Both the position numbers and the translations under genes were made by a program. 63,145 nt of DNA from a virus, in the IMG/VR virus record IMGVR_UViG_3300005528_002232, positions 1 to 63,145 of that record. One strand, given 5' to 3'. The notes beneath the pieces were generated by a model. The model had not been told where the DNA came from. It did not search any database and was given only the letters and a program-made list of their open reading frames with translations. The stretch's first letter is position 1; the number at the start of each line of letters is the position of its first letter. This document shows positions 9,755-48,723 of the stretch, one piece after another.

Positions 9755-9937
9755 ATGAGCGTTGATGATATAAAAAACCTAAGATTGGGTGAAGTAGTTA
9801 AAGTTAAAATAGATGAATCACACTCGATTAAAGGTATTGTACAAGGAATTGACTTATGGGAGAAAAGAATCAGAGTATCTAAGGATGAATATACTTGTGA
9901 TTGGTTCCCTCCCAGATTAATCAGCAAATTAAAATAA
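9755..9937 (+). CDS. Small conserved-type protein, unknown
   Basis: 60 aa starting two bases after the previous stop. The sequence has alternating strands (LGEVVKVKIDE, IKGIVQGIDL, KRIRVSKD) suggesting a small beta-barrel such as an SH3 or KOW-like fold, ending in PPRLISKLK. I cannot assign a family. Position among small nucleic-acid-type genes hints at an accessory role. Confidence 0.5.
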   Translation: MSVDDIKNLRLGEVVKVKIDESHSIKGIVQGIDLWEKRIRVSKDEYTCDWFPPRLISKLK

Positions 9938-27083: not shown

Positions 27084-28054
27084 AAAAAAAAGCGTTTATC
27101 ACAGGAATCGCCGGACAAGATGGTTCATATTTAGCAGAATATTTACATTCAATTGGATATGAAGTCCATGGAATTGTAAGAAGAAATTCTACTCCAGAAC
27201 ATCAAGAATCTAGAATATCACATCTAGACGATACAATTTATACATATTACGGCGATTTATTAGATCAAAGTAGCTTAGAACATTTATTAGCAAAAATACA
27301 ACCAGATGAAATTTATAATCTTGCAGCTCAAAGCCATGTTCGTATTAGTTTTGACATACCTCAATTTACAATTCAAACAAATGGATTGGGGGTTCTGAAT
27401 ATATTGGAAGCTTATAGAAATGCATGTCCAATAGCAAAATTTTATCAAGCATCATCATCTGAGATGTTTGGCAGTTCTGTAGACGCCGATGGATTTCAAC
27501 GAGAAACAACACCAATGACTCCAGTGTCGCCATATGGATGTAGTAAAGTATTTGCATATAATATTGTACGAAATTATAGAAACGCATATAACTTACATGC
27601 ATCTAATGGTATTCTATTTAATCATGAGTCACCTAGACGTGGTTCTAATTTCGTAACAAATAAAGTTGTCAAAGCCGCAGTTTTAATTAGTTTAGGATTG
27701 CAAGATAAATTGGAATTAGGTAATATGGATGCTTATCGTGATTGGGGACATTCTTACGATTATGTAAGAGCAATGCATCTCATTCTACAACAAGATAAAC
27801 CAGGTGATTGGGTTGTTGCGACTGAGGAAACTAGATCGGTACGAGATATGTGTGAGTATGTGTTTGGTAAGTTGAGATTAGATTATAGAGATTATGTGAT
27901 ACAGAATCAAAAGTTTTTACGTCCAGAAGAGTTACCGTATCTCAAAGGAGATTGTACAAAAATTAAAACAGAATTAGGTTGGACTCCGACATATACATTT
28001 GAAAAAATGATGGATGAAATGATCGAATTTTGGCAAAAGGTGTATAACAAATGA
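27080..28054 (+). CDS. gmd: GDP-mannose 4,6-dehydratase
   Basis: 324-aa short-chain dehydrogenase. NADP loop GIAGQDGSYL at 9-18, SSSEMFG with the catalytic Ser/Thr-Glu set, YGCSK as the YxxxK pair and the Gmd-specific FNHESPRRG. It makes GDP-4-keto-6-deoxymannose, precursor of GDP-fucose, rhamnose or perosamine. The aminotransferase-like gene just upstream would suit a perosamine-type product, but that is inference. Confidence 0.93.
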   Translation: MKKKAFITGIAGQDGSYLAEYLHSIGYEVHGIVRRNSTPEHQESRISHLDDTIYTYYGDLLDQSSLEHLLAKIQPDEIYNLAAQSHVRISFDIPQFTIQTNGLGVLNILEAYRNACPIAKFYQASSSEMFGSSVDADGFQRETTPMTPVSPYGCSKVFAYNIVRNYRNAYNLHASNGILFNHESPRRGSNFVTNKVVKAAVLISLGLQDKLELGNMDAYRDWGHSYDYVRAMHLILQQDKPGDWVVATEETRSVRDMCEYVFGKLRLDYRDYVIQNQKFLRPEELPYLKGDCTKIKTELGWTPTYTFEKMMDEMIEFWQKVYNK

Positions 28055-28770
28055 TTTCGATAGTTCAGAATTTTATATGTACTAAGCCAGAACGGTTGCA
28101 GGTATTACAAAAACAACTACCAACGATTGGAAAAGTTTTTAGTGATGTTGAATTTTTTGTAAATTATAATTCAACAATTAATTTAGAAGAAGTTTACTCA
28201 TTATATAAAAAACATATTTCAAAATTAAATTTTTATAATGATTTATCAGAAGAATGGGCACCTGTTACGTTATCATTAGTTAATCAAGTAACAACTCCAT
28301 ATGTGATTTTTTTATGTGAAGATACGCAAATACATGTATCTAAAGACCAGGTATATAATCGTATTTATGAATTTGTTGAATTAGATTATGACTACATGTT
28401 ATTAACAAAGCTAGAAAAATATCTACTACAAGAATATATTGATGGATACACCCCATATAATACAAATAAATCACCTGGATATAAAAAATTAAAATATGGA
28501 TATTCATATTTAGGTAAACATGCACCACATAAAAGATTAAGTACCGATGCCGTGTATAAAACACCATGGTATCGAGATCGTTTAACTGAATTTATTCTGA
28601 ACATTGATCAATGTGTTCATGACATACCAATTCGAGATAAACGAAAACCAAATTGTTACGAAGGATATTATGATTTTAATAACGGGATGGCAAGATTTGC
28701 AGAATTAAAATGTTACATTCCGAATGAAGTAATTATATCCGAATTTGATGGAGTAAAACAAAATTCATGA
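28051..28770 (+). CDS. Probable glycosyltransferase (GT-A-like), unknown
   Basis: 239 aa. An ISIVQNFICTKPERLQVL start and the short segment TTPYVIFLCEDTQIH look like a GT2-type core in which the DxD is EDT. The rest is Tyr-rich and unfamiliar. It overlaps gmd and the next gene by 4 bases each. Assignment is by pattern and context. Confidence 0.5.
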   Translation: MISIVQNFICTKPERLQVLQKQLPTIGKVFSDVEFFVNYNSTINLEEVYSLYKKHISKLNFYNDLSEEWAPVTLSLVNQVTTPYVIFLCEDTQIHVSKDQVYNRIYEFVELDYDYMLLTKLEKYLLQEYIDGYTPYNTNKSPGYKKLKYGYSYLGKHAPHKRLSTDAVYKTPWYRDRLTEFILNIDQCVHDIPIRDKRKPNCYEGYYDFNNGMARFAELKCYIPNEVIISEFDGVKQNS

Positions 28771-30971
28771 AAAATATAGTTTTTATACCTAATGTAGATT
28801 TAGGTAATGATAGAAATCAACCATATCATTATTCGGTTAAAAGTTGGCAAACATGGTGCGATCGAAACAATGTTACATTAATTGAATGGAAAGATGTTAT
28901 ATCCGATCCAAACTATCTTAAAGTCACATTACAGCGATATTGGGTACATGATATATTAGAACATAATGGAATTGAATACGACCAAGTTTTAATTGTAGAT
29001 GCTGATACTATTATACATCCAGATGCTCCTAATTTTTTTAATGAAACTAATGGAAAGTTTAGTGTAGTAGTAAATAATGGATGTTATGAATGGACAACAA
29101 GAAGTATTCAAAGATGGGGAGATGCATTATTTCCAGATCAGCCTAAAATTAAAACATGGAAATATTTTAATGGGGGGTTTCAAATAACAAATAAAGCACA
29201 TAAACCGTTTTATGATAAAGTTAAAAATTTCTATTTACAACATATTGAAACTATTAATCAATTAAACGAACAAATTAAAGCCGGTACGGATCAGACTATT
29301 ATTAATTATTTAACACAGTTATTCAATGTTGATGTTAATTATTTACCAGAATGCTATAATCTGCAAGATTTGTTTCGAAAAAATTTATTACATATTCCAG
29401 GTCACTCATGGTTTACCGATGAATTACATTTTATAAATGCTGGATGGGTATATCATTTTAATGCAATACCACAGAATCCTAGGCACGTTGCATATTGGTT
29501 AGAACGAACATATAATGAATTAAATGTATCTGTACAGGAACTGCCTAAATATAGTCCTATTAGTTCAGAATACTTCATGAATATGGAAGTAGCGAATGGT
29601 GGAATTAGTAAACAAATATTAAATCTTAATGGTAAACTAAAAACAGTACGAGAGATAGTTAACTATTGGAAAACTGCCAGTAAGCCAAATCTAGAACCAA
29701 ATAATTGGCAATATTATAACTGTATGATTGCTGGATTTCGTAAAAATGTTGCAAATCATCATGATTTGGGTTGGGATAAAATGACTGAAGAATATTACAA
29801 CTCTTTAGACAGTATGACTGATTCGGAAATTGAAACGTTTCTTAAAGAAAATCCAGTTGAATTTGATAATGGATTTATAAAACATAGTTATCATCGAGCG
29901 TATGCAATGATTGGCCGACTTGTTCGAGGAGAAAAATATATTCCATTTTATATTGAAACATCAAAGATATATGATACTCCTACAAAAATAGACGGAGTTC
30001 ATCGAGTCAAACCAGTAACTTCAAAAATACATCTATTAAAACAATTAGATGAATTGGGAATAGATAAAAATGAATATTGTTTAACGCAAAGTTCAATATT
30101 AAGTGCAATGGGTATTCGAGATAATGATGATTTAGATATAATCATATCATCTAAACTCAGAGAGCAAAATATTAAGTTTCCCGATAATGTAGAAGTATTT
30201 CCAAAAGATTATGCCAAATTTATGAAATTCGGTGCAACGAGTGATGATGATATTTTACAAAATTATTGTATAGAAATAAATGGTTATAAATTTCTAGAAC
30301 CTAGATTTTATTTTTCAAGAAAAAATATAACTAATTCTAATAGGGATGTTAATGATTGGAACAATATTAAAATGTTTTTCGAATCTGGCAGCCACAAGGG
30401 ATATCCATTCAATATTGAGTTTTATAAATGGGGCGTTACATATGTTGATAAAGTTCAATTGATTGATTTAGAATTTCAAAACTTCAAACTAATAAAAGAT
30501 AAATATAATCGCATAGTAGACGGCATTAATCACGGCCGTACTATTTACTACGATGCAGTATCAAAAACATTTATCAAAATATTTCACCCAGAATATTGTA
30601 GATTACAAAATTTTCAAAATGCAATAGAATCAGGACTTTTTAATGGAGTAGTACCGGCTTTAGATAAATTAATTTATGATGGTAATGTCTTAATTGGTTA
30701 TGTTATGAAAGAGGGCAAAACTATTGCAGATAATGATTTTGATTTTGATAAAATTCCAACGCATTTTATGAAAGCTGTTTTAGATAATTGCAAAAAACGA
30801 AATAAAATTTACTATGATTTAGTTCCCCAGAATATAATTCAATTGGAAAATGGTCAATATAGTTTAATCGATCTAGAAAGCGTATATGATTATAATCAAG
30901 AAGATATAATGTTAAAACATAATGCAACATATAAGCCTAGTAACTTATTAAAACACTTGGAATCTATTTAA
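28767..30971 (+). CDS. Three-part fusion: glycosyltransferase, nucleotidyltransferase-like, kinase-like
   Basis: 734 aa, the longest protein in the sugar locus. Residues ~1-250 look like a GT-A glycosyltransferase with DAD at 78-80 (VLIVDADTIIHPD) and YFNGGFQI. A middle part near 437-458 has SILSAMGIRDNDDLDIII, like the DxD of nucleotidyltransferase folds. The C-terminal part near 681-707 has YYDLVPQNII then SLIDLESVYD, the catalytic-loop (DxxxxN) and DFG-like (D-L-E) pair of aminoglycoside/lipopolysaccharide kinases. It could transfer a sugar and phosphorylate the product. No stop or frameshift breaks the chain. Confidence 0.65.
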   Translation: MKNIVFIPNVDLGNDRNQPYHYSVKSWQTWCDRNNVTLIEWKDVISDPNYLKVTLQRYWVHDILEHNGIEYDQVLIVDADTIIHPDAPNFFNETNGKFSVVVNNGCYEWTTRSIQRWGDALFPDQPKIKTWKYFNGGFQITNKAHKPFYDKVKNFYLQHIETINQLNEQIKAGTDQTIINYLTQLFNVDVNYLPECYNLQDLFRKNLLHIPGHSWFTDELHFINAGWVYHFNAIPQNPRHVAYWLERTYNELNVSVQELPKYSPISSEYFMNMEVANGGISKQILNLNGKLKTVREIVNYWKTASKPNLEPNNWQYYNCMIAGFRKNVANHHDLGWDKMTEEYYNSLDSMTDSEIETFLKENPVEFDNGFIKHSYHRAYAMIGRLVRGEKYIPFYIETSKIYDTPTKIDGVHRVKPVTSKIHLLKQLDELGIDKNEYCLTQSSILSAMGIRDNDDLDIIISSKLREQNIKFPDNVEVFPKDYAKFMKFGATSDDDILQNYCIEINGYKFLEPRFYFSRKNITNSNRDVNDWNNIKMFFESGSHKGYPFNIEFYKWGVTYVDKVQLIDLEFQNFKLIKDKYNRIVDGINHGRTIYYDAVSKTFIKIFHPEYCRLQNFQNAIESGLFNGVVPALDKLIYDGNVLIGYVMKEGKTIADNDFDFDKIPTHFMKAVLDNCKKRNKIYYDLVPQNIIQLENGQYSLIDLESVYDYNQEDIMLKHNATYKPSNLLKHLESI

Positions 30972-30987
30972 AAAATATACATAATAA
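30957..30987 (+). promoter_or_regulatory. Class I promoter, degenerate: TTG-N20-CATAATAA
   Basis: TTGG in the last codons of the fusion gene and CATAATAA at 30980-30987, at exactly the class I spacing. The ATG at 30994 is 14 bases from the box start. One mismatch in the second box. Confidence 0.4.
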
Positions 30988-30993
30988 GAATAT

Positions 30994-31914
30994 ATGAAAT
31001 TGTTTCGAATATTAGTTACGCATGCGGGAGGACCTGCCGCAATAAGTGTTATTAAATCTTTAGAATGTAGTAAATTTAAAGATGATATTGCCATTGTTGC
31101 TGCAGATTCAGACCCAACAGCCGCGGGATTGTTTTTAGCAAAAAAAGGAGAAACATTGCCAGATAGTTCAAATGAACAGGAATGGTTAACTGCTTTGCTT
31201 AAATTAATCAATCAGTATAATATTAATGTAATATTTCAAACCGGCGATTCTGATGTAGCATTGATGGCAAAATTTCAAGATCAAATTAGAGCCACCGGCG
31301 TTTATTTGTTAATACCGAGCAAATTAACAATTGACATTTGTCAAGATAAGTATTCATTTTATTCTTTATGTAAAGACAAATTTAAACTGCCATTAACGTC
31401 GACATCAAAATTATTATTTCCTGGTAAAAAAATTATTAAACCGATTAGAGGTAGTGGTAGTAGAAATATTCAGATTATCGATAACGGATTTCCAAAAGTA
31501 GACGAAGGATTTATAATTCAAACATTTATAGACGGCCCGGAATATTCAGTTGATGTATTATGTGATGAAGCATCCAATATGTTAACAGGAATTGTTCGCG
31601 AACGAATTCAAACAAAAGCTGGAATATCTACTAAGGGACGAATTGTTAATAATCATGAAATTTTAAATGAATGTGCTCGTATATGTATGCATTTAAATAT
31701 AAAAGGCCCGGCGTGTATCCAACTAAAGGAACAAGGTGGGCAATATTATTTTTTAGAAATTAATCCTAGATTTGGTGGCGGTTTAATTTTTAGTACATTA
31801 GCTTCAGTTAATATTCCCGAAATGATGTTAGAATATTTTAGCGGCGCTTCAATAACTATCAATCAACCAAAAGAAATAACCGTAGTTAGATATTTTAATG
31901 AGATTGTATTATAA
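30994..31914 (+). CDS. ATP-grasp enzyme (CarB-like)
   Basis: 306 aa. N-terminal RILVTHAGGPAAISVIKSL pre-ATP-grasp domain, KIIKPIRGSGSRNIQII as the ATP-binding lysine and glycine loop, EGFIIQTFIDGPEYSVDVLCD, and YYFLEINPRFGGGL with the metal-binding Glu/Asn. It resembles CarB-like ATP-grasp proteins of surface-polysaccharide loci, which may ligate an amino acid or carboxylate to a sugar. Substrate unknown. Confidence 0.85.
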   Translation: MKLFRILVTHAGGPAAISVIKSLECSKFKDDIAIVAADSDPTAAGLFLAKKGETLPDSSNEQEWLTALLKLINQYNINVIFQTGDSDVALMAKFQDQIRATGVYLLIPSKLTIDICQDKYSFYSLCKDKFKLPLTSTSKLLFPGKKIIKPIRGSGSRNIQIIDNGFPKVDEGFIIQTFIDGPEYSVDVLCDEASNMLTGIVRERIQTKAGISTKGRIVNNHEILNECARICMHLNIKGPACIQLKEQGGQYYFLEINPRFGGGLIFSTLASVNIPEMMLEYFSGASITINQPKEITVVRYFNEIVL

Positions 31915-32843
31915 TGGCACATTTTTTTAGAATATATAACAATCAACTTTCATCTTTAGGAGAAGTTAGCAAAATAGGATTTAATAAAAACAATGCATAC
32001 GCAATTCCCGATGAATATCTTGATGCACAAGAATTTGTTGTAATGCGAACGTGTCATGGTATAGGCGATTGGGCTGTAATATCAGCAATGCCACGTTTAT
32101 TAAAACAAAAATATCCAAATTGCAAAGTATATGTTCCGTCTCCTAAAATGTTGCGTTCTATATTTGGCGAGATGCTAAATACGTGGGGCTATGGCGTGTA
32201 TGATTGCTCTAACATAACCTTAGACATCTTTAAAAATAATCCATACGTAGACGCATTTATTGATAGCTATAACGGAGAAATATTTCACGATCATTATCGA
32301 ATATATGATTTAGATAATTCAAAAATACCATTAGTCGAACAAATGTTGAAATTTTGGCAATTTGAAGATTCTGAAATGCAAGATAGTAATCCGGATATAT
32401 TTTTTAACGATGCCGAAATAAAAAAAGGCAATGATATCATCGAAACATATTGGAATAACAAACCATATGCATATGTTTCAGTATCATCTACCTTTGGAAC
32501 AACATCAGACGAACAAGTTTTAATTGATGTTATTGATAATGAATTGAATTGGTTTTATTATGGCGAACGTCCTATTCAAGATACATCATTGAATTATTTA
32601 AACAGTGTTGTAGAAGTTAAACAATTACAGTTATCAATTAGAGAACAAATGTATTTGAAATCAAAAGCAATACTTAATGTTGGAAATGAAACTGGTATGA
32701 ACTTATGGTCTACTAGATTTTCAAAAACATATATTTTAGGTAACAAACGATATGGATCTAATCATGGCGGTATCAACGAGGGCAAGATTAGAAAAGATCC
32801 ATTTTCGAGTGGTAACTTTGTAAAAAATGTTATATACGTATGA
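31914..32843 (+). CDS. GT9-like (heptosyltransferase-type) glycosyltransferase
   Basis: 309 aa. VVMRTCHGIGDWAVISAMPRL is the GT9 N-terminal GDxxxxxP motif and KYPNCKVYVPSP follows. AILNVGNETGMNLWSTRFSKTYIL resembles the C-domain donor loop. Similar to heptosyltransferase-like GT-B proteins. Starts at the stop of the ATP-grasp gene. Confidence 0.75.
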   Translation: MAHFFRIYNNQLSSLGEVSKIGFNKNNAYAIPDEYLDAQEFVVMRTCHGIGDWAVISAMPRLLKQKYPNCKVYVPSPKMLRSIFGEMLNTWGYGVYDCSNITLDIFKNNPYVDAFIDSYNGEIFHDHYRIYDLDNSKIPLVEQMLKFWQFEDSEMQDSNPDIFFNDAEIKKGNDIIETYWNNKPYAYVSVSSTFGTTSDEQVLIDVIDNELNWFYYGERPIQDTSLNYLNSVVEVKQLQLSIREQMYLKSKAILNVGNETGMNLWSTRFSKTYILGNKRYGSNHGGINEGKIRKDPFSSGNFVKNVIYV

Positions 32844-33175
32844 AATTTTATGAATCAACCCCATATTCAAAAACGCAACAAATTGCATTAGTTGATATCG
32901 ATGAAACTATATGTCATTATCCAGATATTCGTCGATATGATTTAGCACAACCAATTCAGCATCATATCGATAAAATTAATGCATTATATGATGCGGGATG
33001 GAAGATAATATATTGGACAGCTCGAGGTGCAGTTTCGGGTGTAGATTATAAAGAATTTACGCTGAAACAATTAAATGATTGGAAATGTAAATTTCATGAA
33101 TTAAAATGCGGAGACGAAAAACCACATTTTGATTTAGTAATAGATGATAAAGCAAAAAGGATCGAAGAAATATGA
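32840..33175 (+). CDS. HAD-superfamily phosphatase
   Basis: 111 aa, minimal HAD fold. Motif I ALVDIDETICHYP with the DxD nucleophile pair, motif II IIYWTARGAV (Thr in ITG-like position), and motif III/IV HFDLVIDDKAKR with the closing Asp pair. Small HAD proteins of this type occur in capsule clusters and dephosphorylate sugar phosphates. Confidence 0.85.
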   Translation: MKFYESTPYSKTQQIALVDIDETICHYPDIRRYDLAQPIQHHIDKINALYDAGWKIIYWTARGAVSGVDYKEFTLKQLNDWKCKFHELKCGDEKPHFDLVIDDKAKRIEEI

Positions 33176-34122
33176 AAAACAAAAGAATTTTAATTATCGG
33201 TGGCACAGGCGCATTGGGCAGCAATTTAGTAAGACGATACTATCAAAATAACGATATTATGGTGTTATCTAGAAATGAACATAAACAAGAAGCAATGCGT
33301 TTAGAATTTCCAAATGTGACATATAAACTGGGAGATGTTAAAGACAAACAGTCAATTGCTAGATCATTTCAAGAATTCAAACCACAAATTGTTATCAACA
33401 CTGCAGCAGTTAAAACAGTTTGGGTATGCCAAGCAAATCCATATGAATCGGTTGAAGTAAACATTAATGGACATCAAAACTTATTAGATGTTATTCAAGA
33501 GAGTACACATAAAATAGAAACGGTAATTTTTATATCAACAGATAAAGCATGTAAGCCGGTAAATGTATATGGTATGTCTAAAGCAATTGCAGAACAATTA
33601 TATGTAGAATTTGCAAAACAACAAACAGATATCAAAGTAGTATTAGCAAGATATGGAAATGTTTTAAATTCAACCGGATCAATTATTCCAGTATTTAAAA
33701 AGATGATCGAAGATGGTGTTGAATCTTTACCAATCACTGATACCAAAATGACTCGGTTTTTATTGACATTAGATCAAGCTATTAATTTAGTAGAATGGGC
33801 ATACAATCATCCAACCTCTCACGGAAAAATTGCAATACCAAAAATTGAATCATTAAACATAATGGATTTAGTTAAAGCAATTGCAGAAGCATGCGGCAAA
33901 CCAGATATTGCATTTCATAAAATTCCAATTCGAGATGGAGAAAAACTACATGAAGAAATGATCAGTGAAATAGAATGGCAACGTACGGAAGATTCTGGAG
34001 ATTATTATCTAATTGGATTTCAAAAACGTAATGAAGATTATGGAAAGTTACCGTTTAGTTCACAATATCATGTAACAAATAATGTTGCTAATTTTTTTAA
34101 GAAAAATAATATTACAATATGA
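33172..34122 (+). CDS. capE: CapE-like UDP-GlcNAc 4,6-dehydratase / epimerase
   Basis: 316 aa of the polysaccharide-biosynthesis CapD/PseB/CapE family. NAD loop IIGGTGALGSNLVRR, FISTDKACKPVNVYGMSK with the catalytic Lys/Tyr arrangement, and ARYGNVLNSTGSIIPVF. The PITDTKMTRFLLTLDQA segment is typical of family members. It would convert UDP-GlcNAc to a 4-keto-6-deoxy sugar. The next gene encodes the CapF-like reductase that uses this product, which favours CapE over PseB. Confidence 0.85.
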   Translation: MKNKRILIIGGTGALGSNLVRRYYQNNDIMVLSRNEHKQEAMRLEFPNVTYKLGDVKDKQSIARSFQEFKPQIVINTAAVKTVWVCQANPYESVEVNINGHQNLLDVIQESTHKIETVIFISTDKACKPVNVYGMSKAIAEQLYVEFAKQQTDIKVVLARYGNVLNSTGSIIPVFKKMIEDGVESLPITDTKMTRFLLTLDQAINLVEWAYNHPTSHGKIAIPKIESLNIMDLVKAIAEACGKPDIAFHKIPIRDGEKLHEEMISEIEWQRTEDSGDYYLIGFQKRNEDYGKLPFSSQYHVTNNVANFFKKNNITI

Positions 34123-35186
34123 TTATTGGATTAAATGGATCTGGTTTTATTTCATATCATTTAAATGTATATTTTAAATACAAATGTACAGATATTGAAG
34201 TAATTCAATTGCAAAGGAATTTATTTGCAGATTTGCATAATTTAAAAAAATGCGACGTCATTATCCATATGGCAGAAAAAAATCGCGGAGATGAGAATGA
34301 ATTATACAACAATAATATTCAAAGTACAACCGATTTAATTTCAGCATTAGATAGTATTCAAACACAGCCATTGGTTATCTATACATCATCGATTCATGAA
34401 GATGCAGATAATGTATATGGCAAATGGCGTAGAAACAATAAAGAACAATTCGCAAAATGGGCAAAAAATAACAATTTTATTTCAATTAAACTGCCGAACA
34501 TATATGGCCCATTTTGTAAACCAAATTACAATTCATTTATTGCAACGCTATGCGATTCTTTAATACAAGATAAAAAAATTAATGTTATAGATAATCCAAT
34601 ATCGTTGTTATATGTAGAAAATTTATGCAAACAAATTCATGAAATAATTTTAGGTCATCGATTTGATGTTGAGTTTGATGTTATGTCATCAATAGGCATC
34701 GTTACCGAAATGTTGACTAATTTTTTATCATATATTCAAACAGGCAAAATACCAAAATTTCAAAGTGAATTTGAATTGAATATGTTTACAACATTTCGAT
34801 CATATATTATGAATCCTGTATTTGATGTTAAACATATAGAAGATAATCGGGGTGAATTAAAAGAATTAGTTATTTCGAAAGAACAAGGACAAATATTTTA
34901 TTCGACTACAAAACCTAACGTAACTCGAGGAAACCATTTTCATACAAAACGAGTTGAACGTTTTTGTATAGTACAAGGACATGCAAAGATTGAAATGCGA
35001 AAGATTGGTAGTAATAAAATTATTTCTTATAATATAAAAGATTCGGACAATAAAGTTATCGATATGCCGCCATATTATACTCACAATTTAACCAATGTTG
35101 GTAATGATGATTTGATATGTGTATTTTGGATGAATGATATTTTATCCGAACAAGCAATTGATGATACGTATTTTGAGGTAGTTTAA
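34119..35186 (+). CDS. capF: CapF-like SDR-cupin bifunctional reductase
   Basis: 355 aa. An N-terminal short NAD-binding part (IIGLNGSGFISYHLN; DVIIHMAEKNRGD in place of the usual HLAGVNR) is followed by a C-terminal cupin: GQIFYSTTKPNVTRGNHFHTKRVERFCIVQGHAKI, closing with MPPYYTHNLTNVG. This two-domain order is diagnostic of CapF/WbjC. With CapE it makes UDP-N-acetyl-6-deoxytalosamine, the precursor of UDP-FucNAc. The third enzyme, CapG epimerase, was not found here. Confidence 0.87.
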   Translation: MIIGLNGSGFISYHLNVYFKYKCTDIEVIQLQRNLFADLHNLKKCDVIIHMAEKNRGDENELYNNNIQSTTDLISALDSIQTQPLVIYTSSIHEDADNVYGKWRRNNKEQFAKWAKNNNFISIKLPNIYGPFCKPNYNSFIATLCDSLIQDKKINVIDNPISLLYVENLCKQIHEIILGHRFDVEFDVMSSIGIVTEMLTNFLSYIQTGKIPKFQSEFELNMFTTFRSYIMNPVFDVKHIEDNRGELKELVISKEQGQIFYSTTKPNVTRGNHFHTKRVERFCIVQGHAKIEMRKIGSNKIISYNIKDSDNKVIDMPPYYTHNLTNVGNDDLICVFWMNDILSEQAIDDTYFEVV

Positions 35187-35815
35187 TGAAATTTTTAAAT
35201 TTTGATAGAGTTTTATGTTTAGCGCCGCATCCAGATGATGTTGAATATGCAATGATGGGTACGATAAGAAAATATCAAGATACGCATTTTGATATTTTTT
35301 GTATGACAGTTGGCGGACAATTTGATGAAACGAGTGATAGACCTAGACATCAAGAAGTTATGAATGTTTGGGAAAATGTAGATTCAAATGTTTCATTAAT
35401 GTTTTCTGAAACATATTACATGGATGAATTAGGACACGACGGCTGGGTGAATTTTATTGAGACAAAAATAATTACGGATGAACATGCATGCATATTTATT
35501 CCAACATCAGACGATTCGCATTTTGAACATAAATTTGTTAACGAATTATCATATCCACTAACGAGAATTAAAAATCTAAGTATCATTGAATATAGAACGC
35601 CTAGTACTTTGGATACATGGTATCCAAACATGTTTGTTGATATTACAGATCAATTCGATGAAAAGTTTAATCAGTTACAATATTTTACTTCTCAAAAAGA
35701 TAGATGGTATTTTCAACGTCCTGTATTTGAATCATTTCATTTAAACTATCAAAGTTATAAAAAAGGTATTAAATACGTTGAAAAATTCAAAGCAAGACAA
35801 TTGTATAGATTATAA
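35186..35815 (+). CDS. PIG-L/LmbE-type deacetylase
   Basis: 209 aa. VLCLAPHPDDVEYAMMGTIRK carries the AHPDDxE zinc motif, and TSDDSHFEHKFV supplies the H-x3-H ligand. Such enzymes remove N-acetyl groups from GlcNAc-type sugars. Next to CapE/CapF, a deacetylated amino sugar is plausible. It is co-translated with capF (one-base overlap). Confidence 0.9.
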   Translation: MKFLNFDRVLCLAPHPDDVEYAMMGTIRKYQDTHFDIFCMTVGGQFDETSDRPRHQEVMNVWENVDSNVSLMFSETYYMDELGHDGWVNFIETKIITDEHACIFIPTSDDSHFEHKFVNELSYPLTRIKNLSIIEYRTPSTLDTWYPNMFVDITDQFDEKFNQLQYFTSQKDRWYFQRPVFESFHLNYQSYKKGIKYVEKFKARQLYRL

Positions 35816-35833
35816 ATAAAAAGGTAAATATAT

Positions 35834-36382
35834 ATGAAACAAATTGAATTAATTAATGAATATTTTGATCAGTGTAAACTTCATACAACACCCGAAAGTA
35901 GATATATACATCATTTAATGGATATATTATATCAATATGGAAAAAAATGCGAAGGCGGCCATATTGTAGAAATTGGCGTAGAAACTATGATATCATCATG
36001 GGCATGGTTAAAGTCAAATCCTAGTAAAATTACATTATGCGATATATCATTCGATCGAGCTAAACCTAAATTAAAGGATTATCAAGAAATTTGTAATGCA
36101 AATAAAATTGAACTAATTCTTGAGGAAAAATCTTCTCATAAAATGCGCATATCTAATGTAGATTTATTATTTATTGATGGGTTGCATACATATGCGCATG
36201 TTTTAAAAGAATTAAATTTATTCGAAGGCGATGTTAAACAGTATATTATTATGCATGATATTATCAAGTTCCCAGGAGTAAATTCTGCTATGAATGATTT
36301 TCTGTCTTTAAATGAAAATTGGACAATTGATTTAGTTATCGAAGAATTTCCTGGTCTTAGTGTGCTAAAACGAGTTGTATGA
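35834..36382 (+). CDS. SAM-dependent methyltransferase, type 24-like
   Basis: 182 aa. HIVEIGVETMISSWAWL is motif I, ITLCDISFDRAK motif II and VDLLFIDGLHTYAHVLKEL the Asp-Gly-His pattern of Methyltransf_24 proteins. The gene has its own AAAAAGG start site. Substrate unknown; glycan or small-molecule O-methylation is likely in this context. Confidence 0.8.
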   Translation: MKQIELINEYFDQCKLHTTPESRYIHHLMDILYQYGKKCEGGHIVEIGVETMISSWAWLKSNPSKITLCDISFDRAKPKLKDYQEICNANKIELILEEKSSHKMRISNVDLLFIDGLHTYAHVLKELNLFEGDVKQYIIMHDIIKFPGVNSAMNDFLSLNENWTIDLVIEEFPGLSVLKRVV

Positions 36383-37317
36383 AAATAGCATTTTTTACTG
36401 AGATGGGCTTCCACGGGAAGATTTCCAGAACCCATGATAATATGAGAACTGAATTTGCATGGATGTGTGCGTTAGATGCAGAACATTTTAATATTAAACA
36501 TGCAATGGAGTCTACTGAGTATATCGAAAGTCCGGTATTTGATTTAGGAATTGTTATTATTCCAAAAAACAATCCAGAATTTGATATTAACAAACTACGA
36601 ATGGTTTGTAAACAAGTAGCTATAATGCAAGAAGGTCCTAACTGGCTTTGGCAGGATTATCCATTACATCAACAAATTTGGTATTTTAACACATTAACTA
36701 GTGCAGATATTATTTTTACTCATAATGAATCCGATCGTAAATATTATCAAGGATTAACGACACATCCAGATGTTCGTGTTTTACCATCTTTAATGATTGA
36801 GGATGCTGTTGGCCAGTTAGATGTAATCGATCGTAGCGGTGTTATTATTGGAGGTAATTTTGTTTCATGGTATAGTGGTTTTGATTCATATATGATTGCT
36901 CAAGAATTAGATAATACTGTATGGGCACCATCGATGGGGAGAAAACAGTCACATGAAGATCAGCTATTAAATCATTTTCCGTATATGAATTGGACAACCT
37001 GGATTCAGTCACTTAATAAATTTAAATACGGCATACATTTAATGCGAACTCATGCCGCGGGTACCTTTGCCCTAAATTGTTCATATCTAGGAATTCCATG
37101 CATTGGTTATCGAGGATTAGATACACAAGAACAACTTCATCCAGATTTAACAGTTGAACTAGGAGATTTACAATCTGCTAGAATGATTGCGCAAAAACTT
37201 AGGATAGATGAAGAATTTTACTTATATTGTAGTAATACAACAAAAAAATTATACAAAGAAAAATATCATGAAAATAAGTTTTATACAACCTTCCAGGAAC
37301 AATTTAAAGTATCTTAA
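36379..37317 (+). CDS. Probable glycosyltransferase (GT-B-like)
   Basis: 312 aa. N-terminal MKIAFFTEMGFHGKISRTHDNMR begins a Rossmann-type domain. IIFTHNESDRKYYQG and GIHLMRTHAAGTFALNCSYLGIPCIGYRG match the interdomain and donor-binding part of GT4-like proteins. Weak consensus, but all neighbours are sugar enzymes. Overlaps the next gene by 50 bases at its end. Confidence 0.65.
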   Translation: MKIAFFTEMGFHGKISRTHDNMRTEFAWMCALDAEHFNIKHAMESTEYIESPVFDLGIVIIPKNNPEFDINKLRMVCKQVAIMQEGPNWLWQDYPLHQQIWYFNTLTSADIIFTHNESDRKYYQGLTTHPDVRVLPSLMIEDAVGQLDVIDRSGVIIGGNFVSWYSGFDSYMIAQELDNTVWAPSMGRKQSHEDQLLNHFPYMNWTTWIQSLNKFKYGIHLMRTHAAGTFALNCSYLGIPCIGYRGLDTQEQLHPDLTVELGDLQSARMIAQKLRIDEEFYLYCSNTTKKLYKEKYHENKFYTTFQEQFKVS

Positions 37318-38470
37318 ATGGTCTTATGATGCAATTAGAAAAAATCAAGGTAAACATGAAGTAGAAATTTGCGTTGCTGATGATTTCAGTGATAAAGATG
37401 ATACATGGGAATGGTGTCTTGAAATGATGGATAAAGATACAAATTTTAAAGCTATACGAAATGAAGGCCCTAACAGACTTGGTCATACTATATTATATGA
37501 CCGATTAGTTAATGAGGTTGCAACACACGATATATGTATCATATATCATGCTGATATGTATCTATGTCCAGGCGCATTAGATGCAATTGAAAAACATATT
37601 GGTACAAAACGCATTGTTTCGTTAACTAGGATTGAACCACCATTACATCCAGACGGTCCTGAAAAAGTATTAGCTGATTGGGGAATTGAACCTGAAAACT
37701 TTAATGAAGTTGCATTTTTACAATGGTTTACTAATTGTCACCCGTTAAAAGGAAATCATGTTACAGAAGGAGTATTTGCGCCATGGGCATTTATGAAATC
37801 AGATTTCCAAGAAATCAAAGGACATGATACATTATATGCACCACAGTCTAAAGAAGATTCAGATATATTTAATCGTTTTCAATTAAATGGTGTTAAATTT
37901 ATACAAACATGGAAAGGTTGTGTATATCATATGACTTGCAGGGGTAGTAGATTCAATCCAACACTAACAACTCCCGGAACTAACAGTTCGGAATGGGAAG
38001 CTCAAAATTTACGTTCAACGCGTAATTTTATACGTAAATGGGGTCATTTTTGCAAACATGATGAATTAATGAAACCTATTATTCCGCCAAAATATAACAT
38101 TGCATTTCGAGTCAAATCATGTACTGCTTCATTATTAGAACTTTTAGAACCATGGTGTGATAGAATTTATATTGATGATGATATGCAAGTTTTAACTGCA
38201 GATTATATTGAACGGGAACAATCTAATACTACATTTGATTTGACTAAACGAGTATTTTGTATTGGTTTTAATGATCCTATGTCAGAAAATGATATTGTAG
38301 TAGAAATAGATAGCAATCGAATGAGTAATCAAGATTATATGTATATTCAGCAACTTGCTGAAATTATTCAACAATCCGGAGAAATAGGATCATTTCAATT
38401 AGGAACATTAAACATAACAATTAATCATTTAGAAACATATGAGAAAGATTTAATAATATGCAAAAAGTAG
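37268..38470 (+). CDS. Glycosyltransferase, GT2
   Basis: 400 aa from the ATG at 37268, chosen because MKISFIQPSRNNLKYLKWSYDAI is the expected GT2 start; an in-frame start 60 bases upstream gives a non-homologous extension. The DxD site is in CIIYHADMYLC. VFAPWAFMKSDFQEIKGHD and EDSDIFNRF match the acceptor/base region. A ~150-residue C-terminal extension has no clear family. Its start overlaps the upstream gene by 50 bases. Confidence 0.82.
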   Translation: MKISFIQPSRNNLKYLKWSYDAIRKNQGKHEVEICVADDFSDKDDTWEWCLEMMDKDTNFKAIRNEGPNRLGHTILYDRLVNEVATHDICIIYHADMYLCPGALDAIEKHIGTKRIVSLTRIEPPLHPDGPEKVLADWGIEPENFNEVAFLQWFTNCHPLKGNHVTEGVFAPWAFMKSDFQEIKGHDTLYAPQSKEDSDIFNRFQLNGVKFIQTWKGCVYHMTCRGSRFNPTLTTPGTNSSEWEAQNLRSTRNFIRKWGHFCKHDELMKPIIPPKYNIAFRVKSCTASLLELLEPWCDRIYIDDDMQVLTADYIEREQSNTTFDLTKRVFCIGFNDPMSENDIVVEIDSNRMSNQDYMYIQQLAEIIQQSGEIGSFQLGTLNITINHLETYEKDLIICKK

Positions 38471-39366
38471 TAGTAACCGGTGGGGCTGGATTTATAGGCT
38501 CAAATATGACTGATTATTTGTTACAACGAGGATGTCATGTAATTGTAATTGATAACTTATCTACGGGTAAAGCAGAAAACATAAATAATCTAGCAAAATT
38601 TTATAACAAAGATTTAGCAAAAATCGATGTTGATGAATTAACTGATATATTCAATGAAGTAGATTTTGTTTTTCATTTTGCCGCTATGGCTCGGGTGCAA
38701 CCATCTATAGAAGATCCCATTACATTTAATACGGTAAACGTTCAAGGTACACTTAAAGTATTGTTAGCAGCACATCGAGCTGGTGTTAAACGAGTTGTAT
38801 ATAGTGCATCGTCATCGGCATATGGAGATGCTACACAATTTCCGACACCCGAAACTCATGGTACCAATCCATTATCTCCATATGGTCTTCAAAAATTAAT
38901 CGGAGAACAATATTGTAAAATGTTTAGTCAGGTATACGGATTAGATACGGTATCTCTTCGTTATTTCAATGTATATGGAAATCGAATGGCAACTGAAGGA
39001 GCTTATTGTTTAGTAATGGGAATATTTGCAAAACAAATGTTAGATGGATTGCCGCTAACTATTACAAATGATGGAGAACAACGAAGAGATTTTACATACG
39101 TAGATGATGTAGTACAAGCTAATTGGTTAGCAGCTACATACATCGACCCGTTAAATGGAGAAGTTTTTAACATTGGAAACGGAAAAAACTATTCAGTTAA
39201 TGAGGTAGCTGATATGATGGGTGGGGAAAAAACGTATGGATATCCTAGAATCGAGCCTAAAGAAACATTAGCAGATAATACAAAAGCTCGTAACATCTTA
39301 GGATGGAATCCTGTTGGAGATTTACCGACATGGATCAAACAATATAAAAAAGATTTAGGTATTTAG
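38458..39366 (+). CDS. NAD-dependent sugar epimerase, GalE-like
   Basis: 302 aa. VVTGGAGFIGSNMTDYLLQRG is the NAD loop, VYSASSSAYGD holds the catalytic Ser, PYGLQK the YxxxK, and SLRYFNVYGNRM and RRDFTYVDDVVQA are family hallmarks. Likely 4-epimerase on a UDP-hexose or UDP-HexNAc. It is the last gene of the sugar locus. Confidence 0.9.
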   Translation: MQKVVVTGGAGFIGSNMTDYLLQRGCHVIVIDNLSTGKAENINNLAKFYNKDLAKIDVDELTDIFNEVDFVFHFAAMARVQPSIEDPITFNTVNVQGTLKVLLAAHRAGVKRVVYSASSSAYGDATQFPTPETHGTNPLSPYGLQKLIGEQYCKMFSQVYGLDTVSLRYFNVYGNRMATEGAYCLVMGIFAKQMLDGLPLTITNDGEQRRDFTYVDDVVQANWLAATYIDPLNGEVFNIGNGKNYSVNEVADMMGGEKTYGYPRIEPKETLADNTKARNILGWNPVGDLPTWIKQYKKDLGI

Positions 39367-39422: not shown

Positions 39423-39641
39423 ATGAAAAAATTTATTACAGAAATGTTTACTGGCGGAGATACATCTATCAAACGAGTTATTGCATTTATTGGATTTTTA
39501 TTTATTGCCGTTACAATGTTGTTGAATTCATATTCTCATGAATCTGTTAAACCATCTACAGATCTAGTAGATGCAGTTAAAACCATTGTAATTATTTGCA
39601 TTGCCGGCAATGTTGCTGAAAAATTTCTATTAAAAAAATAA
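39423..39641 (+). CDS. Putative holin (two-helix membrane protein)
   Basis: 72 aa. Two hydrophobic helices at about 17-35 (KRVIAFIGFLFIAVTMLLN) and 50-66 (VKTIVIICIAGNVAEKF) with a charged N-terminus and a basic C-terminus. Size, topology and position directly before the endolysin fit a class II holin. No sequence family is recognised, so this is by context. Confidence 0.6.
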   Translation: MKKFITEMFTGGDTSIKRVIAFIGFLFIAVTMLLNSYSHESVKPSTDLVDAVKTIVIICIAGNVAEKFLLKK

Positions 39642-39657: not shown

Positions 39658-40119
39658 ATGAAAATAACAAAAACAGGTACCGGTGGTATTGAACTAATCA
39701 AAACATTCGAAGGATTTAGAGGAGCACCATATAAATGTCCTGCAGGTATTCCTACAATAGGATATGGTGCTACATTTTACCCAGATGGTAAAAAAGTAAC
39801 AATGACTGATGCTGTAATTACTGAGACAAAAGGAACCGAACTATTACAGAGCATGTTAGCAAGTTTTGAACGCTATGTTGATTCATATTGCCGAGATGAT
39901 ATCAATCAAAATCAATTTGATGCATTAGTGTCATTTGCTTACAACTTAGGCCCAGCAAATTTAAAATCATCAACACTATTGAAAAAAGTTAATGCTAATC
40001 CGCAAGATGAAACCATTCGCGATGAATTCATGAAATGGGTCAAAGCTGGTGGTAAAACACTTAAAGGATTAGTAAGACGTAGAGAAGCGGAAGCAAATTT
40101 ATATTTTAAAAAGGATTAA
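39658..40119 (+). CDS. Endolysin, GH24 lysozyme
   Basis: 153 aa, T4-like lysozyme without signal peptide. The catalytic triad positions are E17, C26 and T32 in TFEGFRGAPYKCPAGIPTIGYG, i.e. E-8aa-C-5aa-T, the known variant in which Cys replaces the T4 Asp20. QNQFDALVSFAYNLG and LVRRREAE are conserved fold motifs. It hydrolyses peptidoglycan glycan strands during lysis with the adjacent holin and M15 peptidase. Confidence 0.93.
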   Translation: MKITKTGTGGIELIKTFEGFRGAPYKCPAGIPTIGYGATFYPDGKKVTMTDAVITETKGTELLQSMLASFERYVDSYCRDDINQNQFDALVSFAYNLGPANLKSSTLLKKVNANPQDETIRDEFMKWVKAGGKTLKGLVRRREAEANLYFKKD

Positions 40120-40122
40120 TTT

Positions 40123-40581
40123 ATGCAATTGAGTAAAAATTTAGTTTTAGCAGAAGTTATGCGAAGTGAAACTGCGAAACGTAAAGGTATTAGCAATATG
40201 CCAACACTAGAGCATATTGAGAATTTCAAACTATTAGCTGAAAAAGTATTCCAACCAATTCGAGAACATTTTGGAAAGCCAATTCACATTTCATCAGGCT
40301 ACAGAAGTGCAGCTCTTAACAAAGCTGTCGGAGGAAGTTCATCTTCACAACATTGTTCCGGTGAAGCAATTGATATTGATATGGATGGAACAGATATCAC
40401 AAATGCCGAAGTATTCAACTTCATCAAAGACAATCTAGAATTTGATCAGCTTATTTGGGAATTCGGAACAGATAAAAATCCAGATTGGGTTCATGTATCA
40501 TATGAATCAAAAGGACGTCAACGCAAACAAATCCTAAAAGCTGTTAAATCTGGCGGCAAAACTGTTTATAAACCTTACTAA
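40123..40581 (+). CDS. Peptidase M15 (peptidoglycan endopeptidase)
   Basis: 152 aa of the M15_3 family. SGYRS at 58-62, zinc ligands H77 and D84 in QHCSGEAIDID, and H124 in WVHVSY. It cleaves peptide cross-links in peptidoglycan. Directly follows the GH24 lysozyme, so the lysis cassette has both glycosidase and peptidase. No signal peptide. Confidence 0.9.
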   Translation: MQLSKNLVLAEVMRSETAKRKGISNMPTLEHIENFKLLAEKVFQPIREHFGKPIHISSGYRSAALNKAVGGSSSSQHCSGEAIDIDMDGTDITNAEVFNFIKDNLEFDQLIWEFGTDKNPDWVHVSYESKGRQRKQILKAVKSGGKTVYKPY

Positions 40582-40598: not shown

Positions 40599-42413
40599 AT
40601 GAAGTTTAAAATCATATTAGCTTTATTGTTACTACCATATACAGTTATCGCACAGCACTTCGATCACGAACAACATGTAGAAACTACATGGGATCAAGGC
40701 ATACCTTTATGTCCTGAAGATGCATACATAACCGGATTGATTGAACAATTAGATCCGGAGTTTTTAACTACTCCAAACAAACCTATTACTAAAAAGAATG
40801 CTAAACTCTGCAGAGAGATTGCAATTGCATTTTACAATCGAGAAATGTATGATGCAGCGGATTGGTATTTGTATAAAGCCAAAACATATGTTGAAGTTGT
40901 AGAGATTCAACCCGAAACAATTGTAAAACAACTGACTCCAGAGATTTCTGATGCAACTGCAGAACAATTGAAAAGTTTGCAACAAGATGCTAAGTTTCTA
41001 GAAAGTATTCCAGACAGTTATGATCAACTCAATGAAACACAAATCAAACAATTAGCAGAACGTATTGATAAACAAATTCAAAAATTAACAACAGAACGTG
41101 CTGTACTTGTAAAAAACAAAGCAAGTAAAGATGTCATTGATGCAAAAGACAAAACCATAGATCATTTAGAAAAAGAAAAGCATGTTATAGATTTAACTGT
41201 CAAAGAAAACGTTTTAAAGAAACAAACATCCATATTAAAAACAGAACGCCAAACTTTATACCGTTATTTGGTATCAACGGGTGCTGTAATTGCAGTTTTA
41301 ATCTTGTTGATATCATATATTGCCTTGAGAAAAAGAGTGGCTTATAAAGAATCTGTGATATTAAAACAAAAGAATCGTTTCAATGAATTTGAACAATTTG
41401 TAGATTCATCAGTGCTTGTTAGCAAAACAGATGCTAAAGGACGAATAACTTATGTAAATGAAAAGTTTCAGCAAGTATCGGGTTGGACTGCCGATGAAGC
41501 TATGGGTCAAGATCATCGAATAGTTAATTCGGGATATCATAACAGAGAATATTGGCAGGATATGTATGATACTGTATTGCGGCAACGTAAAATATGGAAT
41601 GGTGTAGTTACCAATAAAAACAAGTCCGGAGAATTGTATTGGGTAGATTCTTATATTAAAGCTGAGTTTGATGAAAAAGGCCAATTGCAAGGATTTACTT
41701 CAATTCGATACGATGTTACTGATGTTGTAAAAAGTGCACAAGAAATAGAAAAACAAAATACATACTTAGAACATGCAGCAAAGATTCTGCGACATGATAT
41801 GCATTCTGGAATCAACACGTATATCCCACGTGGTGTAAATTCTCTAGAACGAAGATTAACTGATGATACTATAAAAAATTTAAAATTAGAAGCTCCTTTA
41901 AAAATGATAAAAGAAGGATTGACTCATACTCAAAAAGTTTATAAAGGAGTATATGAATTTACCAACCTAGTTAAAAAAGACGTAGTACTTAATAAAACTA
42001 CATGTGACTTGAAACAAATACTAGAATCTTATTTGACTTCAACATCATACAAAAGTCAAGTTATACTAGAAGATCTTGGCAATGCAGATGTAAATGAACC
42101 ATTATTTTGCACTGCGGTTGATAACTTGATTCGTAACGGATTGAAGTACAATGATAGCTCAACTAAGTTTGTGAAGATATATATAGAAAATGGTGATGTA
42201 GTTATACAAGACAATGGACGAGGCTTGACTCAAGACGAATTCAATCATCTGTCTAAACCATATACCAGAAAACCCGGACAAAAAGAAACAGGTACTGGTT
42301 TAGGATTAAACATATGTGTAGCAATATTAACAGAACATGGATTTAAAATAAGTTGTGATAAAAATGAAATAGGAACAAAAATTAAAATTAAATTAGGAAC
42401 TGGGAATGATTGA
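40599..42413 (+). CDS. Membrane sensor histidine kinase with PAS domain
   Basis: 604 aa. A signal peptide ends in VIAQ at 19, followed by a periplasmic-type region with coiled-coil (residues ~145-220), a transmembrane helix at about 224-243, a PAS domain at 265-378 (SKTDAKGRITYVNEKFQQVSG), and a kinase core. The phosphoacceptor is H399 in LRHDMHSG, the N box is DNLIRNGLKYN near 507-517, and the G boxes are IQDNGRGL and GTGLGLNI. The receiver gene follows with an 8-base overlap. A whole two-component kinase in a lytic-type phage genome is unusual. Confidence 0.9.
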   Translation: MKFKIILALLLLPYTVIAQHFDHEQHVETTWDQGIPLCPEDAYITGLIEQLDPEFLTTPNKPITKKNAKLCREIAIAFYNREMYDAADWYLYKAKTYVEVVEIQPETIVKQLTPEISDATAEQLKSLQQDAKFLESIPDSYDQLNETQIKQLAERIDKQIQKLTTERAVLVKNKASKDVIDAKDKTIDHLEKEKHVIDLTVKENVLKKQTSILKTERQTLYRYLVSTGAVIAVLILLISYIALRKRVAYKESVILKQKNRFNEFEQFVDSSVLVSKTDAKGRITYVNEKFQQVSGWTADEAMGQDHRIVNSGYHNREYWQDMYDTVLRQRKIWNGVVTNKNKSGELYWVDSYIKAEFDEKGQLQGFTSIRYDVTDVVKSAQEIEKQNTYLEHAAKILRHDMHSGINTYIPRGVNSLERRLTDDTIKNLKLEAPLKMIKEGLTHTQKVYKGVYEFTNLVKKDVVLNKTTCDLKQILESYLTSTSYKSQVILEDLGNADVNEPLFCTAVDNLIRNGLKYNDSSTKFVKIYIENGDVVIQDNGRGLTQDEFNHLSKPYTRKPGQKETGTGLGLNICVAILTEHGFKISCDKNEIGTKIKIKLGTGND

Positions 42414-42843
42414 ATCAATTTTATTAGTAGATGATGAAGATTTGTTTCACTTAGTATTTGAAGATGCTTGTAGTTTGTTGGATATAACATTATCGTTGCA
42501 AGCAATTAATAGTTCAGACGAAGCAGAACGAATGTTTAAAAATTGGTTTGAAAACGGATTGGTTGAAGAAAAACCGGCTTGCGTATTTGTAGATTTAAAT
42601 ATTATTGGATCTAGTTTTGACGGAATTGAATTGATACGCAAAATTAATTTTGAATACGGTAATCACGTAGTAATCGGAATTATATCATCCTCAGATGAAG
42701 CAACAGAACAAACAAAAGCACAAACAGCTGGAGCTCAGTTCTGGATAATCAAATCAGATGAAATTGAGCCGAGACTAGAAGAATTCCGGAATGACTATCA
42801 ACGTTATCAAACTAGAACGGCTCCTTTTAAAGTATATAGATGA
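42406..42843 (+). CDS. Single-domain response regulator (receiver)
   Basis: 145 aa. ILLVDDED gives the acidic pair D9/D10, CVFVDLN the phosphorylation Asp D63, GIISSSDEAT the conserved Ser near 94-96, and FWIIKSDE the Lys K116. There is no output domain, so it acts by protein contact, as CheY does. It overlaps the kinase gene by 8 bases and the downstream membrane coiled-coil gene by 4, forming a three-gene cassette. Confidence 0.9.
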   Translation: MIESILLVDDEDLFHLVFEDACSLLDITLSLQAINSSDEAERMFKNWFENGLVEEKPACVFVDLNIIGSSFDGIELIRKINFEYGNHVVIGIISSSDEATEQTKAQTAGAQFWIIKSDEIEPRLEEFRNDYQRYQTRTAPFKVYR

Positions 42844-43415
42844 TAAAATTTGATCAGGATACAAAACAAAAATTAAAAGAGTTATATCAAAAGCGTGGTA
42901 TAGGACTCGAAGGAAACATCATTAGAATGATAGACTCATCAGATGATTCTGAGTTTGCAACGTATCTGCAAACATGTAGTGATAAAGACAAAGACAATCG
43001 TCGCAAACGTTTAGAAATAACCAAACAAATTCAAACACAAAACAAAGAGTTGGTAGAATCTCAACAAGCCAATCAACAACTAATGGTAGAATTGCAAGAA
43101 GCATTGGATTCTGCAGAACAATCACGTTGTGATGCTGAGAAGGCCCGGGATGCTGCAATGGATGATTTGGACATGATGCAGAAACGTACTCAGTTTGAAT
43201 TAATCAATCTCATAGTAAAAGTGTCTCTCATAATCATAATAGGAGTTGGATTCATAACTACAACTATTTACATGGTTGCCTTATTTGCCGATAAAGACAC
43301 GCAAATCATCGGATCTACCTGGAGTAACATGTTTGGCATCTTGTTAACCAATGCATTTAGTATAATTGGTACTATAATGGGTGTTAAGTATGCATCCGAA
43401 AAATCCGATAAATGA
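42840..43415 (+). CDS. Coiled-coil membrane protein of the two-component cassette
   Basis: 191 aa. Residues ~55-115 form a long charged coiled coil (QIQTQNKELVESQQANQQL; EALDSAEQSRCDAEKARDA), followed by two hydrophobic helices at about 121-147 and 160-180. No catalytic motif is visible. Its start overlaps the receiver stop by 4 bases, so it is a candidate target or partner of the receiver at the membrane. Function unknown. Confidence 0.7.
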   Translation: MIKFDQDTKQKLKELYQKRGIGLEGNIIRMIDSSDDSEFATYLQTCSDKDKDNRRKRLEITKQIQTQNKELVESQQANQQLMVELQEALDSAEQSRCDAEKARDAAMDDLDMMQKRTQFELINLIVKVSLIIIIGVGFITTTIYMVALFADKDTQIIGSTWSNMFGILLTNAFSIIGTIMGVKYASEKSDK

Positions 43416-43450: not shown

Positions 43451-43798
43451 ATGAACTATAAATACATACTATTATCCATAGCAATTTTCTTGTTGGGACA
43501 GGGCATTGTTTGGATTCAAACCAACGGACCATTATTGTGGCCATGGGCAGTAAAATGGAAATGGGCATTAATTGCATTAGGAATTCCTATTACTTGGCTG
43601 TTTATGGAGGCAACCCGCTTTGCTGTAGAAGGATTTGGCGGTGTTTTTTGGCCTGGAAGATTTGTTTCATTTGTTACTGGAATTACAATATTTGCTATTA
43701 TGACTTGGCTGTTTCGAGATGAAGCTATTAACATGAAAACGGCTGTATCTTTGTTGTTAGCATTCATACTACTAATGATACAACTCTTTTGGAAGTAA
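43451..43798 (+). CDS. Four-helix membrane protein, unknown
   Basis: 115 aa with hydrophobic helices at about 5-22, 34-52, 67-87 and 93-112 and a Trp-rich character (WPWAVKWKWALIALGIPITW). Small integral membrane protein; no family recognised. It follows the two-component cassette but has its own predicted promoter. Confidence 0.6.
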   Translation: MNYKYILLSIAIFLLGQGIVWIQTNGPLLWPWAVKWKWALIALGIPITWLFMEATRFAVEGFGGVFWPGRFVSFVTGITIFAIMTWLFRDEAINMKTAVSLLLAFILLMIQLFWK

Positions 43799-48281: not shown

Positions 48282-48512
48282 ATGGAAACAAAGAATTTTA
48301 TAGATAACGTATTTGTCAAATCCATTAACATAATGGCCACCAACAAATGGCAATGGCCAGAACGTTGGGATATTGATAGAAAAATACGTTTTCTAACTGA
48401 TTCACTAAATTATGCAAAAGAAAATGAGTTTTGGGAACAAGCCGCAATCATCAGAGATGTCAAAGAAAAAATCAACGAAGAAAAGGGGTCAATATCAAGT
48501 AGTATTGATTGA
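48282..48512 (+). CDS. Small protein with UVR-like helical motif
   Basis: 76 aa. RKIRFLTDSLNYAKENEFWEQAAIIRDVKEKI resembles the UVR motif (A-x-x-x-x-x-F-E-x-A-A-x-x-R-D) of UvrB/UvrC and of ClpC-interacting McsA. It overlaps the ClpS-like gene by 56 bases in another frame. Given its neighbour it may have a Clp-related role, but this is inference. Confidence 0.6.
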   Translation: METKNFIDNVFVKSINIMATNKWQWPERWDIDRKIRFLTDSLNYAKENEFWEQAAIIRDVKEKINEEKGSISSSID

Positions 48513-48723
48513 TGACAACGTAAACACATTTGATCATGTTATTGAATGTTTGATTGAAATCTGTGGACATAATTATTTTCAAGCCATACAATCTGCTTTA
48601 ATTACACACAATGTTAAACAATGTTCTGTGTTTGTAGATGATTACGATCTATGCACGGACATATGCAGTGAATTAGTTGAAGATGGACTAAATGCAATTG
48701 TTACAAAGTATAAATCATTATGA
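48457..48723 (+). CDS. clpS: ClpS-like adaptor
   Basis: 88 aa from the ATG at 48457 (an earlier start at 48412 is possible but would overlap the upstream gene by 101 bases). YQVVLIDDNVNTFDHVIECLIEI matches the ClpS N-degron pocket, with DDN in place of NDD, and ALITHNVKQCSVFVDDYD keeps the conserved His. ClpS delivers N-end-rule substrates to ClpAP. In a phage it could retarget host proteolysis. Overlaps the UVR-like gene and the next small gene. Confidence 0.75.
   Translation: MSKKKSTKKRGQYQVVLIDDNVNTFDHVIECLIEICGHNYFQAIQSALITHNVKQCSVFVDDYDLCTDICSELVEDGLNAIVTKYKSL

Follow-up and report, generated by a model that had tools for sequence, protein, structure and literature searches.

Why would a virus carry a sensor histidine kinase of its own directly behind its lysis genes, and what might such a kinase control? 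Holin clocks are the known means by which phages time lysis, to which T-even phages add direct antiholin sensing. The locus that raises the question lies in IMG/VR virus record IMGVR_UViG_3300005528_002232, of which all 63,145 bases (positions 1 to 63,145) were analysed and are called the window here. The window encodes a T4-like replication set (UvsX, a DnaB-like helicase, DNA polymerase and ribonucleotide reductase). A sequence-only reading had described a complete cassette of a kinase, a receiver and a two-TM protein with 8- and 4-base overlaps, placed it after holin and endolysin genes, and proposed that it could sense envelope state, redox or co-infection and time lysis, the two-TM protein being the membrane effector. 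The cassette was confirmed as three intact + strand ORFs, which we call HK, RR and CC, with HK/RR overlapping by 8 bases and RR/CC by 4 bases. As for its site, GH24 and M15 endolysin genes do lie upstream, whereas the holin is reduced to a candidate with a weak PHROG match. The features are as follows, with signal peptide and TM positions assigned by eye from the sequence.

39423..39641, + strand: small membrane protein, holin candidate (PHROG match, E 0.08)
39658..40119, + strand: GH24 endolysin (phage lysozyme; match 2.5e-44)
40123..40581, + strand: M15 peptidase endolysin, 17 bp upstream of HK (match 2.3e-22)
40599..42413, + strand: HK, sensor histidine kinase, 604 aa (ORF call, domain matches, motif conservation)
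HK ~aa 223-243: its one TM
41409..41723, + strand: HK PAS (aa 271-375), of the MmoS/Aer/NifL FAD kind
41793..41795, + strand: H399, predicted phospho-acceptor histidine, in RHDMHSGIN
HK aa 503-599: HATPase_c
42406..42843, + strand: RR, stand-alone receiver, 145 aa (ORF call, receiver match, conserved residues)
42592..42594, + strand: RR D63, predicted phospho-acceptor
42751..42753, + strand: RR K116
42840..43415, + strand: CC, coiled-coil two-TM protein, 191 aa, proposed output protein
CC ~aa 119-149: TM1, continuous with the rod
CC ~aa 155-188: TM2, WSNMFGILLTNAFSIIGTIMG
43451..43798, + strand: 115-aa multi-TM protein, 3' of CC in the window and in loci L041, L063, L064 and G274

The rest of the window has several features of its own. 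Signal peptides ending in A/S-Q (at 40599, 61666 and 62390) and the scarcity of Shine-Dalgarno-like sites, present at 22 of 76 genes, would probably fit a Bacteroidota host. The T4 late-promoter motif TATAAATA was found 11 times against 12.7 expected, and sigma-70-like sites were fewer than in shuffled sequence. Consecutive genes at 6248-8546 for GTP cyclohydrolase I, a 6-pyruvoyl-tetrahydropterin synthase/QueD-like protein and a radical SAM (QueE-like) protein likely form a 7-deazaguanine pathway, perhaps for DNA modification, the QueD and QueE names being inferred. GroES-like (PF00166, 10255-10554) and GroEL-like (PF00118, 56128-57744) genes stand 46 kb apart, and a DnaK-like gene adjoins the cassette in several other phages that carry it. 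A ClpS adaptor (PF02617, 5.8e-13) at 48412-48723, also present in the sister phage L214, could redirect host ClpAP. Immediately upstream of the lysis genes, glycosyltransferase, epimerase and sugar-nucleotide genes fill a long stretch (~21565-39366) that is partly different in L214, which suggests an exchangeable sugar decoration.

HK runs from a signal-peptide-like N-terminus through a periplasmic TPR-like and coiled-coil region, the TM, the PAS domain and the DHp region to HATPase_c, with Pfam matches to HATPase_c (1.2e-13) and PAS (6.6e-9, PAS_9). The N-terminal half of its predicted structure has low confidence, and we make no claim about the fold of the periplasmic part. The N box, the D box (DNGRG at 538) and the GTGLGLN box are present, and these boxes are conserved together with H399, as in the histidine kinase of a two-component system. 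The DHp region matched no Pfam DHp family at E 0.1; among the HKs of the family, the block YLEH.A...RHDMHSGIN.Y.PRG.SL..RL is nearly invariant. N-terminal to this block the family HKs vary, carrying GAF (assigned by eye), one or two PAS domains, or a periplasmic rod. About ten loci have tandem HK pairs, usually a PAS-type HK followed by a signal-peptide/coiled-coil HK lacking PAS, and the window HK fuses both sensor kinds in one chain. Between the tandem HKs of L042, L047, L049, L070, L072, L078, L082 and L100 lies a secreted-looking coiled-coil protein of ~200 aa, perhaps a partner of the sensors in the periplasm.

Among solved structures, the HK PAS is closest to MmoS PAS-A (3ewk, 2e-32), followed by Aer and NifL. 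The flavin-pocket residues that distinguish Aer and MmoS are H53/N85/R115 and H132/N164/R195, respectively (PMC9668731). The window HK has all three diagnostic residues as H306, N339 and R370, and the triad is kept in 49 of the 49 HKs that fit the motif search. Because the domain is MmoS-like and its flavin triad is kept, our best prediction is that this PAS senses respiratory state through flavin redox, and the redox sensing proposed earlier is thus likely. With its periplasmic part, HK may have the envelope as a second input.

RR matches Response_reg at 1.3e-6, slightly below the Pfam gathering score. The acidic pair D9/D10, the phospho-acceptor D63 and K116, by which a two-component receiver is recognised, are invariant in 20 diverse relatives. 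The median amino-acid identity of 42 non-redundant receivers is 79%; their 4-fold degenerate sites, by contrast, agree at 0.33-0.39 in pairs below 90% identity, close to the random expectation of 0.34. With G274 excepted, the DNA polymerases of the cassette phages are hardly alignable with that of the window (fragments at 25-37%), and their DnaB helicases are 26-29% identical to it where found over most of their length. RR is therefore old and unusually constrained, since it keeps ~79% identity despite saturated synonymous sites and diverged polymerases and helicases. Recent horizontal transfer as the cause of RR similarity was rejected for most pairs by the same saturation and accepted for G274.

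The trio is no one-off: a search for the three-gene order in other phages found it in about 110 viral contigs, essentially every one that is long enough, which rules out a chance arrangement. Scanning IMG/VR with HK gave 39 loci, and scanning it with RR at least 595 matches, of which the best 80 were kept. CC lies 3' of RR in essentially every contig that continues, mostly overlapping the RR stop codon, and each of 20 records searched (20/20) has a single receiver of the RR kind. Outside these viruses, a search of 84,980 species of bacteria and archaea gave one CC match, on a metagenomic-bin contig with phage-like genes (PhoH-like, nuclease); a search of the phylum around this bin returned that phage contig and three weak partial matches only. 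RR was found in none of 72,556 plasmids, and neither RR nor CC in 50,697 records of cultured phages, where HK matched only PAS or ATPase fragments of host-like proteins. PADLOC gave no meaningful match for the cassette, so it has no link to a known defence system. The cassette is a phage-owned module of large uncultured phages, which bacterial genomes and cultured phages essentially lack. Very probably it is a two-component relay specific to phages, with a conserved membrane protein as its third part. In the lineage of the window itself it is probably accessory, because only one of 21 records retrieved via the window's polymerase has the receiver; most of these records are fragments, but several exceed 140 kb. 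The reading of the cassette as complete holds, and it is under selection; its HK sensors, however, are freely swapped while RR and the CC tail are fixed.

One exchange can be followed in G274. This phage is a sister of the window: their polymerases share 85% identity, their helicases and holin candidates 89% each, their lysozymes 87% and their CC proteins 75%. For HK and RR, by contrast, G274 matches L110 (87% and 94% identity, respectively), a phage of 304 kb in which the helicase is 28% identical to that of the window. Tree tests reject a clade of the window and G274 for HK+RR (p-AU 0.0018) and the placing of G274 with the L110 group for CC (p-AU 0.00021), these p values being indicative, as the groups were named after the pattern was seen. 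HK and RR thus came into G274 as one swapped unit, upstream of the native CC, so that RR must suit divergent CC proteins if the two interact. The HK-RR and CC histories of L085 versus L110 seem to differ in the trees as well, as a second such case.

CC had no match above the cut-off among domain families and nothing significant in PDB profile and fold searches, and its single BFVD relative is an uncharacterised protein of an uncultured Caudovirales phage (A0A6J5PRT3). It consists of a cytoplasmic N-terminal head with an LEGN motif, a coiled-coil rod that runs into TM1, and TM2; the predicted structure (mean pLDDT 88, pTM 0.46) has a short helical head, a helix from 37 to 149, and TM2 at 155-188. 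Between two conserved anchors the rod measures 50, 57, 64, 85 or 92 residues, all 1 modulo 7, and such heptad-only lengths were found in all 112 of 112 CC proteins (65 distinct). Insertions and deletions of whole heptads imply that the coiled-coil phase must be kept from the head to the membrane, as in signalling rods. TM2 is polar and nearly invariant, suggesting oligomer packing or a pore. Set against class II holins, small 2-TM proteins (N-in/C-in) that make membrane lesions, CC has two TMs and no signal peptide, together with a cytoplasmic head and rod of 118 residues and no match to a holin family. Because structural and family matches are lacking and separate holin candidates exist, any role given to CC is guesswork. 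In L003, the gene 3' of CC (8159-9760) encodes ankyrin repeats and a weak guanylate-cyclase-like C-terminal match, possibly an extra signalling output in one lineage.

The lysis-gene adjacency noted for the window recurs well beyond it. Four endolysin types are found repeatedly beside the cassette, namely GH24, M15, GH19 with a peptidoglycan-binding domain, and a YkuD-like family that corresponds to the C-terminal half of an annotated endolysin and has an H...SxGC pattern like YkuD, by eye. Of 25 large records, 14 have an endolysin no more than 5 kb from RR, where uniform placement would give 3.7; the P of 1.7e-7 for this enrichment presumes independent records, whereas these are related. Cassette neighbours supplied two of the four profiles, a bias in favour of near genes, but the search extended over whole records. 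The other 11 of the 25 have none of the four types within 5 kb of RR: five lack them altogether and six have one 6 to 30 kb off. Among 56 locus representatives, the flank holds an endolysin-type gene in 35 and any lysis-type gene in 43, the latter count including small membrane proteins that are merely holin candidates. Lysis-type neighbours are often within 100 bp of the cassette, on either side and either strand. The neighbour is thus recurrent, but its kind varies by lineage (GH24 with M15, GH19, or YkuD-like), and in about one locus in four no lysis gene is recognised close by. Since late genes cluster, the adjacency may mean shared timing rather than shared function.

Taken as a whole, we read the locus as a redox/envelope phosphorelay whose membrane output, CC, adjusts late events at the membrane and the time of lysis in particular, and we put the chance that this is correct at about even. 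An HK dimer would be located in the inner membrane, where the periplasmic rod (in the window) and the FAD-binding PAS would read the infected cell's envelope and its redox/respiratory state and so set autophosphorylation of H399. The phosphate would then move to D63 of the stand-alone receiver, a transfer to which the residues and the gene linkage point. Phospho-RR (or RR) may dock onto the cytoplasmic head of CC, a putative contact suggested by linkage and co-conservation, and the heptad-locked rod would pass the change into the two TM helices. These helices would promote or hold back a late membrane event, most likely holin triggering and hence the time of lysis; that lysis is the output, we infer from the neighbourhood alone.

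The same phosphorelay and CC output might instead serve another late membrane decision, such as superinfection exclusion, a pause or pseudolysogeny in energy-starved cells, or holding of the membrane potential, with lysis genes nearby because all are late genes. A redox/energy-type PAS suits an energy check, the holin candidates are separate genes, and about a quarter of the loci are free of a recognised lysis neighbour; but four unrelated endolysin types abut the cassette on either side and strand, which is more specific than general late clustering, and we regard this possibility as unlikely, though serious. HK and RR could also rewire host signalling, the receiver binding a conserved host target or draining host kinases and CC being linked but separate. 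A stand-alone receiver without an output domain, conserved over most of its length and more than a phage-internal partner strictly needs, would agree with this. The nearly constant position of CC behind RR, mostly overlapping its stop codon, and the co-conservation of the DHp region with RR argue against it and make it improbable. Histidine kinases and receivers are bacterial inventions and the PAS is bacterial in kind, as would be expected of a recently captured host operon carried as neutral cargo; close bacterial copies of the three-gene operon were not found, though, and the lone, phage-like CC match, the absence of RR from plasmids, one copy in each of 20 records, and residues kept intact despite saturated synonymous sites leave almost no room for a recent host copy with broken residues.

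The fullest form of the lysis-tuning phosphorelay, which we offer tentatively, would be a wholly phage-evolved three-component system in which exchangeable redox/envelope sensors, a nearly frozen receiver and a heptad-locked transducer gate lysis by phosphorylation. A phage-owned histidine kinase relay, if true, would add to the means by which viruses sense the state of a cell and respond to it. The family also lends itself to testing, since its sensors are exchanged, its receiver hardly changes, there is one candidate output protein and lysis genes recur nearby.

Compared with known systems, the cassette shares with canonical two-component systems the H, N, D and G boxes, the D63/K116 receiver, overlapping genes and modular sensors, but it differs in having no Pfam DHp match, a receiver lacking an output domain, a fixed third gene and a phage-restricted distribution. 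With the MmoS, Aer and NifL FAD-PAS sensors it has the flavin residues in common; here the PAS belongs to a phage HK that also has a periplasmic rod, and FAD binding is predicted. We found no paper on phage-encoded kinase/receiver cassettes in the openly accessible literature, and the receiver relatives described in a jumbo-phage survey are HK-free only (PMC7824862). These cREC proteins resemble RR as a receiver-like fold encoded by large phages; they are reported never to occur with histidine kinases and are linked to NAD/ADP-ribose enzymes (PMC7824862), whereas RR is always directly 3' of HK. CC resembles chemoreceptor-type signalling rods in its cytoplasmic rod, which changes length only by whole heptads, and differs from them in lacking methyl-accepting or CheA/CheW elements and sequence similarity, and in placing the rod N-terminal to the TMs. 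In T4 lysis inhibition, the antiholin RI directly binds the holin T from the periplasm, with no kinase or receiver involved (PMC11413866). HK, RR and CC have no homology to RI or T and include no periplasmic antiholin, CC being a cytoplasmic rod with two TMs; what the two would share is a phage-encoded envelope sensor tied to lysis genes and proposed to delay or trigger lysis.
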